Shown here: positions 2,965 to 5,598 of the stretch, piece by piece
Layout: each line of letters opens with the position of its first letter
How positions within the stretch are numbered: position 1 is the stretch's first letter
Origin: Candidatus Lithacetigena glycinireducens
GTDB lineage: Bacteria; Coprothermobacterota; HKB111
Length of the DNA stretch: 5,599 nt
Direction: 5' to 3'
Assembly (NCBI GenBank): GCA_018725485.1
Contig: QLUP01000067.1
Coordinates: forward strand, 1 to 5,599
Notes under the pieces: model-generated
Database searches by the model: none
What the model was told of the DNA's origin: nothing
What the model saw: the letters and a program-made list of their open reading frames with translations, nothing else
Made by a program: the position numbers and the translations under genes

Positions 2965-3426
2965 ATGGAATTGACCCTGTTAAATAAAATTATTCTAATT
3001 TTTCTGGCAACTGTAACCCCGATAAGCGAACTCAGGGGTGGAATACCTATGGCTATTAGCCTGGGGTTTAATCCTATATTGGCGTATTTTAGTATCGTGG
3101 TTTTAAATATCCTCCTTTTTTTCCCTGTAACCATTCTACTCAAATTTTTTCATAAGAAATATTTATCTAAGTGCGACCTTTACCAGAGGTATATATCCCA
3201 TATAAGAAACCGGGGAAAACCTTTTGTTGACAGATATGGAATGCTGGGGTTGGCTTTATTTGTAGCTATTCCTTTGCCAGCAAGCGGAGTGTATTCAGGT
3301 ACCATTCTCAGCTGGCTAATAGGAATGAGCTGGCAAAAAAGTTTTCTTTCTATTTCTCTGGGAGCGGCCTTTGCTGGGCTCATAGTTCTCTTCCTTTCTC
3401 TTCCTCTCGCACAGTTTATTTGGTAA
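2965..3426 (+). CDS. Small multidrug export family membrane protein (PF06695 / COG2426 type)
   Basis: This is a 153-residue, very hydrophobic protein. The motif T-P-I-S-E-L-R-G-G-I-P at residues 18-28 is the family signature. A second signature, ALFVAIPLPASGVYSGT at 97-113, matches the conserved 'P-L-P-x-x-G' region of this family. Likely membrane segments are about 7-19, 36-61, 93-103, 109-122 and 126-149, with a basic loop at 62-90. The 'multidrug export' name is inherited from database annotation; the true substrate is not established, and the fold recalls DedA-like re-entrant-loop proteins. Length is normal for the family. The ATG is the only plausible start: an in-frame TAG lies at 2932 and no other ATG precedes the signature. 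It lacks a clear Shine-Dalgarno sequence because a dispersed repeat occupies the upstream bases. A strong purine tract (AGGAGAAGGGG, about 2902-2912) lies about 50 bases too far upstream. The gene converges on the HD-protein gene with a 22-base gap. Confidence 0.85.
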   Translation: MELTLLNKIILIFLATVTPISELRGGIPMAISLGFNPILAYFSIVVLNILLFFPVTILLKFFHKKYLSKCDLYQRYISHIRNRGKPFVDRYGMLGLALFVAIPLPASGVYSGTILSWLIGMSWQKSFLSISLGAAFAGLIVLFLSLPLAQFIW

Positions 3427-3448: not shown

Positions 3449-5323
3449 TTATTGATATCTTTCCAAGGGAAAAAACCAGAAAATTGAATTTCCCACTTCA
3501 ACCTCGCTAAGATGTGTAAATCTACCGTTGCTTTCCTGTCGATAGAGCCTGTACCTGTCTAAATCCATAGACCCGTTGGTTAAAGGTATTTTAGCTCTGT
3601 CTTCATTATCAAATGTTAATTCCAAAATCATCTTTTTCCCCGAAGATATAATACTTTTTTCTTTTATCCTGTGAAAACTGTATTGTACTCCGGTAGAAAG
3701 GGGAGGATTTTTATCTATTTCATGTAAGTAGAGAGGGACTAATCCACAACATTTATAAGAATAAGTATTAATAATTTTTCTACATTCGGAAAGAAGTTCA
3801 TCAGTTAAACATTCTTTAATATACAGAGATCCCTGCCTTATATAGCAATGGTAGCCTTTTTTTAAAAGGAGTATTTTTACCTTAATAAGTAGCTTTTTTA
3901 TTTCCCTGGTAAGGTTAGACGAGGAACTTATTGATGATTCTCTTTGGAAAAGTTGATATAAAATATATTCCTTGAGGGTAATGGGAGCATCTATTTTAAG
4001 CCACTCCTGGTAAAGGTTGATAATAGACATCTCCCAATCGGGAAGAATGGTTTTATGAAAATACTCCTCGGTCAAACTGAATAATACTTTTATCTTCTCC
4101 AGATCGTTGAGCTTAGAATTTAAATCGTTAATCTCATTTTTTTTCAATAGGAGTTCGTTTTTCTTTTCCTCTTTCCATCTACCTTTTTCCAGGTTCTGGA
4201 TATGGCGTGAAATGCTTTGTATTCTATCTTCAACATCCTTTTTTTCCCGTAGATAGTTCCGGGCTACCACTTTATTTACTATACTTTGGGCATCTTCTCT
4301 CTGATTGGGGGTAAGGGGGTGAGTAAAAGTGGATTGGGGAACGAGCTGGAATAGCTGGTGGTAATCAGGGACAAAAAATGTCCTGGTGCTAGTTTGGTTA
4401 AGGTTGTTGATTGCTTCTTCCAGATCGGGGATTAAATTAGAAAAAGATTCGGATAGGCTATGTTTTGTTAAGGGGTAATTTTTTATAAAGGATTCACCGA
4501 CTGCGTAGATTTGAAAGCCATTAAGGGACAATAAAAGATTACCAGCACAATATGTTTCTTCAATCATTTTTCTGAGTTTGCCTTGCCTGTTGTTTATTTT
4601 TAAGAAAACAACAGGTATTTTCTGTGTAGAGATGATATTTTTTCCATTAAGAAGCGTTTCGTATAAAGCAATCTTAAAATAGGTAGCGGTGGTGAAGGAG
4701 TGATCCCATAAGGTCAAATCGTTGCCTGGCCTCCTGGTTTCAGAAGGAAAGGTGGTATAAATGGGTTTTACAGCCTGGAAAACATGGTTTTTAATATTCT
4801 GGAGGCTATCTTTTATAAAGGCTTTGTTAATTTTTTTCCATAAACTCTGGCGGTATTGGTCAATTTTATTGGTGTGAACCAAAGTTTCTACTCCTAAAGG
4901 TGTAGAAAAGTAGGTATCATCTTGTGGTTGCCGAGAGATGTCCTGAAGGAATCCTTTCTCTTCTTCGGAAGCTCTTTGGTCAGCAAGCCTTAGAAGGCTC
5001 ACTATCGGGTTCTTATTCTTAAATGAGCATTCTCTCTGGCACCTTTCGCAACCGTGGTGAGAGCAGATCAAGCTGAGCGGGTAAAAATCAAAGGGTGGTT
5101 GTTTATTATATAAGCCAGAAAGGGTGATAGTTTTTTTAAATATATCCGGATAATTATCATTAAGAGGCAACAGGGCATGTGTGTCTTCCTGAGAATTATC
5201 TATGGCTTTGGAATGGATAAAGTTAGCGCTAAGCTTACCAATATCGTGCAATAAGGCAATAATTTCCAGGAAGAGAATTAAATCTTCTTTTTTTCCCTGG
5301 TTAAGGCTTTTATCAATTTCCAT
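3449..5323 (-). CDS. HD-domain protein resembling the N-terminal part of Cas10/Csx11 (orphan, no GGDD motif)
   Basis: With the start at 5323 the protein has 624 residues. The N-terminal third carries a metal-dependent HD phosphohydrolase pattern: ALLHDIGKLS (H26, D27), SHHG (H89, H90), LLRLADQRAS (D115) and LTLWDHSFTTA (D207, H208). Having the HD motif first and the D-H-S helix last is the permuted order known for Cas10-family HD domains, and the 'D-x-T-L-W-D-x-S' helix is particularly like the Csx11/Cas10 group. A cysteine cluster, C87 with C92, C95 and C99, follows the His pair and may bind zinc. Residues 356-414 are Lys/Glu-rich and probably coiled coil. The C-terminal 200 residues match nothing I recognise. 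No GGDD or GDD cyclase motif exists, so it should not make cyclic oligoadenylate. If active it would cleave a nucleic acid or a nucleotide; both are inference. No other cas gene or CRISPR array is in the window. The frame continues upstream for 91 codons, but that part is antisense to a tRNA gene and is rejected. The Shine-Dalgarno sequence is weak (AGGCAGG). Confidence 0.75.
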   Translation of the reverse strand: MEIDKSLNQGKKEDLILFLEIIALLHDIGKLSANFIHSKAIDNSQEDTHALLPLNDNYPDIFKKTITLSGLYNKQPPFDFYPLSLICSHHGCERCQRECSFKNKNPIVSLLRLADQRASEEEKGFLQDISRQPQDDTYFSTPLGVETLVHTNKIDQYRQSLWKKINKAFIKDSLQNIKNHVFQAVKPIYTTFPSETRRPGNDLTLWDHSFTTATYFKIALYETLLNGKNIISTQKIPVVFLKINNRQGKLRKMIEETYCAGNLLLSLNGFQIYAVGESFIKNYPLTKHSLSESFSNLIPDLEEAINNLNQTSTRTFFVPDYHQLFQLVPQSTFTHPLTPNQREDAQSIVNKVVARNYLREKKDVEDRIQSISRHIQNLEKGRWKEEKKNELLLKKNEINDLNSKLNDLEKIKVLFSLTEEYFHKTILPDWEMSIINLYQEWLKIDAPITLKEYILYQLFQRESSISSSSNLTREIKKLLIKVKILLLKKGYHCYIRQGSLYIKECLTDELLSECRKIINTYSYKCCGLVPLYLHEIDKNPPLSTGVQYSFHRIKEKSIISSGKKMILELTFDNEDRAKIPLTNGSMDLDRYRLYRQESNGRFTHLSEVEVGNSIFWFFPLERYQ

Positions 5324-5380: not shown

Positions 5381-5454
5381 TGGGGAGTCGTCTAACGGTA
5401 GGACGGGGGACTCTGGATCCCTTAGTAGTGGTTCGAATCCATTCTCCCCAGCCA
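5381..5454 (+). tRNA. tRNA-Gln, anticodon CUG
   Basis: A full cloverleaf can be folded by hand. The acceptor stem TGGGGAG (5381-5387) pairs perfectly with CTCCCCA (5444-5450). The D stem GTCT/GGAC has the loop AACGGTA. The anticodon stem GGGGA/TCCCT encloses the loop CTCTGGA with anticodon CTG at 5413-5415. A four-base variable loop follows. The T stem AGTGG/CCATT encloses TTCGAAT. The discriminator is G, and CCA is encoded at 5452-5454. Anticodon CUG reads the glutamine codon CAG. The unusual first pair (U-A) is typical of bacterial tRNA-Gln. No second tRNA is adjacent, and no clear intrinsic terminator follows. Confidence 0.96.
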
Positions 5455-5575: not shown

Positions 5576-5598
5576 AAAAAATAGAGTTGACCCCATTA
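5576..5598 (+). repeat. Dispersed repeat, copy B (A-run, AGAGTTGACCCCA, TTA)
   Basis: This is a second copy, in the same orientation as copy A some 2.6 kb to the left. It has a six-base A-run (5576-5581), AGAGTTGACCCCA (5583-5595, one difference from copy A) and TTA. It ends one base before the window edge, so its full extent cannot be seen. Confidence 0.6.

Follow-up and report, generated by a model that had tools for sequence, protein, structure and literature searches.

The protein encoded on the minus strand of the window (the whole 5,599 bp stretch of DNA analyzed here, which is an entire contig, C169, of the 1.24 Mb, 83% complete draft genome G000) is a member of the Cas10 superfamily, as both its fold and its ancestry show, yet it is neither a Csx11 equivalog nor a component of a CRISPR effector locus. 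We consider it probable that it is a small Cas10 homologue which stands alone, descends from the type III-C (Csx11) line and either left a CRISPR locus or was never part of one, and that it acts independently of CRISPR as a metal-dependent nuclease or phosphohydrolase, both the activity and the substrate being predicted. A solo enzyme derived from Cas10 was one of the options offered in a first-pass annotation of this DNA, and it is the one favored here; the Cas10 kinship, the missing cyclase motif and the absence of CRISPR neighbors that it reported all hold.

The same annotation had described an ORF of 624 residues lying between a tRNA gene and a membrane-protein gene, with no cas genes nearby. 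This description holds, as the reading frame extends from an ATG at 5323 to a stop at 3449 and the two flanking genes encode tRNA-Gln(CTG) and a Sm_multidrug_ex protein. The start codon is backed by the orthologue in a second genome of the same genus (G001; 623 residues, 59% identity end to end), which opens with MEIQTSLKQ at the equivalent position, and by an opposite-strand tRNA-Gln directly upstream of the solo gene in both the window and G001. The genes considered were:

3449..5323, minus strand: solo Cas10-type HD protein gene (P0001, 624 aa), from the ORF, the full-length G001 orthologue and dN/dS
5381..5454, plus strand: tRNA-Gln(CTG), divergent neighbor of the solo gene, an arrangement common to G001
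2965..3426, plus strand: small membrane protein (Pfam Sm_multidrug_ex, 1.7e-28), convergent neighbor, context only
145-2403, further left: SLH and family-5 solute-binding protein (Pfam search)

In repeat and Rfam scans of the window, the tRNA was the sole RNA and CRISPR arrays were absent, and no RAMP (Cas7/Cas5) genes were present among its ORFs or in its Pfam matches. The contig does not extend into the 10 kb on the right that the first-pass annotation proposed to inspect. The fusion of SLH domains to a family-5 solute-binding protein at 145-2403 is uncommon, and a similar gene lies close to the solo gene of G001. Two copies of a short element, AGAGT(C/T)GACCCC, flank the solo gene (2942-2961 and 5583-5594, the second near the contig end) where none would be expected by chance; a few further contigs of G000 and G001 have elements like it, and this may be a dispersed repeat. 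The same may be said of a GGGGACAGTCCCC-type stretch at 2590-2625, which is intergenic and partly palindromic.

Curated profile libraries recognized solely a Csx11-type HD domain in the window protein. PADLOC Cas10c matched residues 13-244 (4.4e-29) and TIGR02682 (Csx11) matched residues 12-233 only (1.1e-17), values that place the HD match far above chance, although the TIGR02682 score of 63.7 bits is far below the curated cut-off of 248.95 bits. TIGR02682 was matched by 21 of the 28 solo relatives. When a profile of the 28 relatives was compared by hhalign with eight genuine Csx11 proteins, residues 5-302, comprising the HD domain and palm 1, were aligned (99.95%, E 1.3e-37), and C-terminal fragments, compared separately, were aligned to the palm-2/C-terminal region of Csx11 (96.9%, E 1.9e-10). 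These sequence comparisons indicate common descent of the window protein with Csx11 across most of the chain. The Cas3″ profiles TIGR01596 and PF18019 gave weak matches (E 1.8e-4 and 0.003) below their cut-offs (21.6 vs 43.45 bits and 18.1 vs 23.1 bits, respectively). Pfam assigned no family to the window protein, and the 28 aligned relatives gave little there beyond a sub-threshold Cas3_HD. With Pfam and NCBIfam matches listed at E-values up to 10, no GAF-HD, dGTPase, YfbR or other HD family appeared, the generic HD family alone being found at 0.41; these families were also absent from the structural match list, a kind of list that can miss families. Nothing relevant was returned by phmmer against PDB sequences and nothing by PHROGs, and single-sequence scans of the genome and viral collections found no relative; the relatives in the genome collections surfaced only with an alignment as the query.

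An AlphaFold2 model of the window protein (pLDDT 81.9, pTM 0.77) was compared with known structures. Using VIA-align 2 on Foldseek candidates, we found the best match to be Csm1 (Z 19.2, 341 residues, model residues 14-546); the top 47 rows were all Cas10 chains, and the first unrelated chain had a Z of 7.5. Foldseek alone against the PDB gave its best Cas10 (Csm1, ranked second) at E 0.05 and probability 0.97, which is not significant, and the structural case is therefore built on VIA-align 2 together with the sequence profiles. There was no significant Foldseek match among viral structures. The kinship to Cas10 and Csx11 with a permuted order of HD motifs, which the first-pass annotation had put forward, is thus supported by TIGR02682, PADLOC Cas10c, hhalign, VIA-align 2 and the residue alignment alike. 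Csx11 and Cas10c headed the profile searches, no unrelated, non-permuted HD family was the best match, and the model has the Cas10 arrangement where it aligns with Csm1. One point needs amending: the part described as a coiled coil plus an unrecognized domain is not unrecognized. Given its hhalign match to Csx11 and the match of the model to Cas10 in VIA-align 2, it is the remaining body of a reduced Cas10. By the model and the profiles, the window protein is a compact, cyclase-dead Cas10 in which the HD domain is followed by palm 1, then by a helical hairpin, and finally by a palm-2 remnant plus a beta domain:

4646..5290, minus strand: permuted Cas10-type HD domain, residues 12-226 (TIGR02682, PADLOC Cas10c, hhalign 99.95%, structure)
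4424..4621, minus strand: reduced palm 1, residues 235-300 (within the hhalign match to 5-302; beta-alpha-beta-beta elements in the model)
4082..4309, minus strand: long helical hairpin, residues 339-414 (seen in the model)
4193-4204, minus strand: family-specific R/K-H374-x-x-N377-L motif on the helical hairpin (invariance of H374)
3719..3931, minus strand: predicted palm-2 remnant, residues 465-535 (hhalign, model, VIA-align 2)
3818-3847, minus strand: hairpin expected to bear GGDD, which reads CYIRQGSLYI (placed by the order of elements)
3452..3676, minus strand: beta domain at the C-terminus, residues 550-624, resembling the last part of the palm-2 region in Csx11 (hhalign 96.9%, E 1.9e-10)

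The long helical hairpin occupies the place where the zinc ribbon of Csx11 would be. The cysteines of this Cys4 ribbon between the palms, invariant in the eight Csx11 proteins, have no counterpart in the window protein, whose cysteines are at positions 87, 92, 95, 99 and 259 and then after 492. A GGDD or GGD motif is absent from the window protein, as had been noted from its sequence, and from all 28 aligned relatives; GGDD is also lacking in type III-C Cas10 (PMC11229360).

The HD motifs are exactly where the first-pass annotation placed them (H26-D27, H89-H90, D115 and T204-L-W-D207-H208-S209), and their order is permuted, with the last histidine displaced to a C-terminal DH motif. The residues of interest, all on the minus strand, are:

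5243..5248, minus strand: H26-D27, HD signature, invariant across the 28 solo proteins and every Csx11 and Csm1 row aligned
5177..5185, minus strand: D47-x-H49, a putative region of metal ligands; neither residue varies within the solo family, and most Csx11 rows have H49 as well
5054..5059, minus strand: H89-H90, putative metal ligands, invariant in the solo family
5027..5065, minus strand: C87, C92, C95 and C99, clustered about the HH motif, where they may form a Zn or Fe-S site
4979..4981, minus strand: D115, putative metal ligand, D in all solo rows except the Coprothermobacter-like f2 (E)
4697..4741, minus strand: ETRRPGNDLTLWDHS, residues 195-209, which include H208, the histidine displaced in the permuted HD; R197 and H208 invariant, motif also in Csx11

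Across the 28 solo proteins, which span down to 13% identity with the window protein, the residues that are invariant besides the start Met are H26, D27, K30, S32, K39, D47, H49, H89, H90, R197 and H208 in the HD domain and H374, the sole one outside it. This histidine (28/28) belongs to the R/K-H-x-x-N-L motif of the helical hairpin (residues 374-377). H26, D27, the HH pair and H208 are common to most Csx11 and Csm1 rows. The retention of active-site residues in such divergent proteins suggests that the HD site is catalytically able. The four clustered cysteines are present in the window protein, G001, the Caldisericaceae, f259 and f261, whereas f2, f3, f264 and almost every Csx11 row lack them. 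The f2 and f3 relatives have no palm 1, and active-site residues are kept even in the most divergent, Coprothermobacter-like, members. The Coprothermobacter-type protein without palm 1 yielded a modest model (pTM 0.50), to whose HD domain Csm1 is a better fit (Z 9.3) than Cas3 (Z 4.9).

The HD site would be a divalent-metal phosphodiesterase of the Cas10/Cas3 kind. Its substrate is most likely single-stranded nucleic acid, judging by its ancestry, as the Cas10 HD cleaves ssDNA (PMC11229360), and the pseudo-palms, together with the helical hairpin carrying the invariant His374, may bind or gate that substrate. The role would then be in cellular nucleic-acid turnover or repair, not in RNA-guided immunity. 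The main rival to this nuclease reading, which we judge unlikely, is a small-molecule hydrolase whose HD domain degrades a signaling or damaged nucleotide (cyclic or linear oligoadenylate, a ppGpp-like compound or a dNTP) and whose pseudo-palms serve as the nucleotide sensor. Nucleotides are common substrates of HD proteins, domains that derive from palms and have a dead cyclase site, as modeled here, could retain nucleotide binding, and the invariance of H374 outside the HD domain suggests a second functional site. However, nucleotide binding by the solo protein is hypothetical, and the HD lineage in question is that of Cas10 and Cas3, with characterized activity on DNA (PMC11229360).

Every one of the nine genomes sampled from the phylum to which the window belongs (Coprothermobacterota / Ca. 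Lithacetigenota) yielded the solo gene in a profile search, one copy being truncated at a contig edge. Among 54 Caldisericota genomes, 25 matched the profile and 23 carry the solo protein, G426 (a true Csx11) and G403 (a weak match) having been subtracted. The full-length matches in two overlapping sets of about 390 genomes all fell within these two phyla. The remaining clear matches, some weak ones aside, were in III-C loci with RAMP neighbors: G110, G176, G369, G335, G179, G227, G426 and loci L107-L114 were ruled out as solo genes on these grounds. Matches in G159, G182 and G370 (E 1e-4 to 1e-3) were set aside as probable other HD proteins, and one in G218 (E 1.6e-5) has no RAMP-like neighbors. 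The Csx11 of the III-C locus of G335 (L069 7393-10257) is split into two ORFs of 467 and 350 aa, perhaps by a frameshift. Eight solo-gene pairs gave dN/dS values of 0.10-0.22 (about 0.22 for the window and G001), a ninth pair being saturated at synonymous sites. The solo gene is under purifying selection and is inherited as an ordinary chromosomal gene in both phyla.

No cas or RAMP genes were found beside the solo gene in any locus examined in either phylum, so that the lack of CRISPR neighbors reported for the window extends to the loci of its homologues. The neighborhoods consist instead of housekeeping genes, and these change from clade to clade. In f2 they are phoH and genes resembling yqfF, ybeY, era and glyQS, the names other than phoH having been assigned from the starts of the sequences; f3 has genes like gyrAB and one for a cell-wall amidase, f259 a phosphopentomutase-like metalloenzyme (deoB) and transport genes, and f264 DUF58-DUF4129 genes. 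Because the neighbors vary between clades, they point to no pathway. The solo gene of the Caldisericaceae overlaps or abuts a LipS1-LipS2 lipoyl synthase pair in an apparent operon (L066 8848-12324, L067 7310-11069, L124 7168-10502); a lipoate-linked role was considered for this reason and dropped, as other clades have different neighbors.

This distribution bears on whether the protein might be a solo anti-phage effector, that is, a nuclease of Cas10 type able to sense infection with no guide RNA. Cas10 ancestry speaks for such a function, as does the ancestral stand-alone HD-polymerase defense protein proposed by Makarova et al. (2011; PMC3150331). We nevertheless regard it as quite improbable, given that a near-universal, vertical-looking distribution, low dN/dS and housekeeping neighbors (lipS1-lipS2, phoH-yqfF, gyrAB, deoB) are all unlike defense genes, and that no member of the family was found in the phage, plasmid and viral collections.

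The HD-domain tree groups the solo proteins (28 rows, one change, with support of only 61/23; a solo core of 24 rows has 90/85) and sets them beside Csx11. Such a tree fits a solo clade nested within Csx11 and a sister clade alike, and it shows no basal position. Domestication of Csx11 is a simpler story than a pre-CRISPR origin: a Csx11-type Cas10 whose cyclase was already dead would have lost its zinc ribbon, and the reduced protein would have settled as a resident enzyme, passed on vertically, in the stock common to the two phyla. We give little credence to the proposal that this CRISPR-independent Cas10-type enzyme belongs to the core, perhaps the essential part, of deep-branching and thermophile-rich phyla, that its line diverged from Cas10 when type III systems arose or earlier, and that it preserves the pre-CRISPR job of the HD-Cas10 ancestor.

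Carriage of the solo gene is also independent of type III genes elsewhere in the genome. In the window's phylum, six of the nine genomes have no RAMP genes, and neither have 15 of the 23 Caldisericota carriers. Their absence is soft evidence in single incomplete drafts, but the carriers G002 and G394, which likewise have no RAMP gene, are single contigs of 99% completeness. Over the 54 Caldisericota, RAMP genes occur in 8/23 carriers and 7/31 non-carriers (Fisher p 0.37), indicating no association. Across the family, the solo gene is independent of type III loci and of type III genomes. The window's own genome does have a type III locus on a separate contig, C135 (L063 2320-8595), in which a 513-aa III-D-like Cas10 (PADLOC Cas10d 2.9e-53) with GGDD and no HD domain is followed by several RAMP genes. 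One could imagine the solo protein as an HD nuclease that serves, in trans, type III effectors with an HD-less Cas10, as on C135. The two proteins are found together in both G000 and G021, and HD domains are rare in type III-D (3%; PMC11229360). Carriers without type III genes mean, however, that such a role cannot account for the whole family, and the Csm1 of G001 has its own HD domain; we hold this explanation to be very unlikely, while a CRISPR link may exist in the window's own species, whose genome has the HD-less Cas10. That the gene is the decaying remnant of a type III-C locus, an option raised in the first-pass annotation and suggested by the loss of cyclase motif, zinc ribbon and cas neighbors, we reject as next to impossible, since intact frames, an invariant active site and purifying selection are conserved across two phyla.

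The stand-alone Cas10-type enzyme that we favor differs from each known system that it resembles. It shares with Csx11 (III-C) the permuted HD motifs HDIGK, HH, D and ETR..ND.TLWDHS, palm 1, the C-terminal palm-2/beta region and the lack of GGDD, whereas solo proteins have 430-690 residues (Csx11, about 950-1080), lack the four zinc-ribbon cysteines between the palms, and have no RAMP neighbors and, in the window protein, a score far under the TIGR02682 cut-off; the solo protein adds the hairpin with His374 and the Cys cluster in the HD domain. Csm1 (III-A Cas10) has the same overall fold, but the solo protein has about 15% identity to it and lacks both the cyclase GGDD and accompanying csm genes. 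Similarity to the Cas3″ HD nuclease is weak and limited to the HD superfamily, the solo protein having the Cas10-type permuted order and sub-cut-off scores. Like the ancestor postulated by Makarova et al. (2011; PMC3150331), it is a Cas10-like HD protein without Cascade or CRISPR; unlike that ancestor, its polymerase/cyclase site is gone and its position in the tree is not basal. No earlier description of the solo family was found in the literature on solo or orphan Cas10, a search mostly outside subscription journals, so that this absence is not proof. Published surveys would have missed the family, since one left out solo Cas10 proteins through a completeness threshold (PMC10600005) and another left out Cas10s under 500 residues (PMC11229360).

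A shrunken relative of Cas10 is thus an ordinary inherited gene in two phyla of heat-loving or deep-subsurface bacteria, having kept the nuclease-type site and lost the signal-making one. Studies of Cas10 have so far dealt with it as the center of an RNA-guided complex, and a CRISPR-free version kept by selection throughout a phylum indicates that the HD-Cas10 body is able to function by itself. It also provides a small protein with which to ask what HD-Cas10 does without guide RNA, RAMPs or cyclase. If the protein was domesticated, it would represent a CRISPR effector turned resident cellular enzyme; if it is ancestral, it would be relevant to the proposal that CRISPR arose from a stand-alone HD-polymerase protein (PMC3150331).
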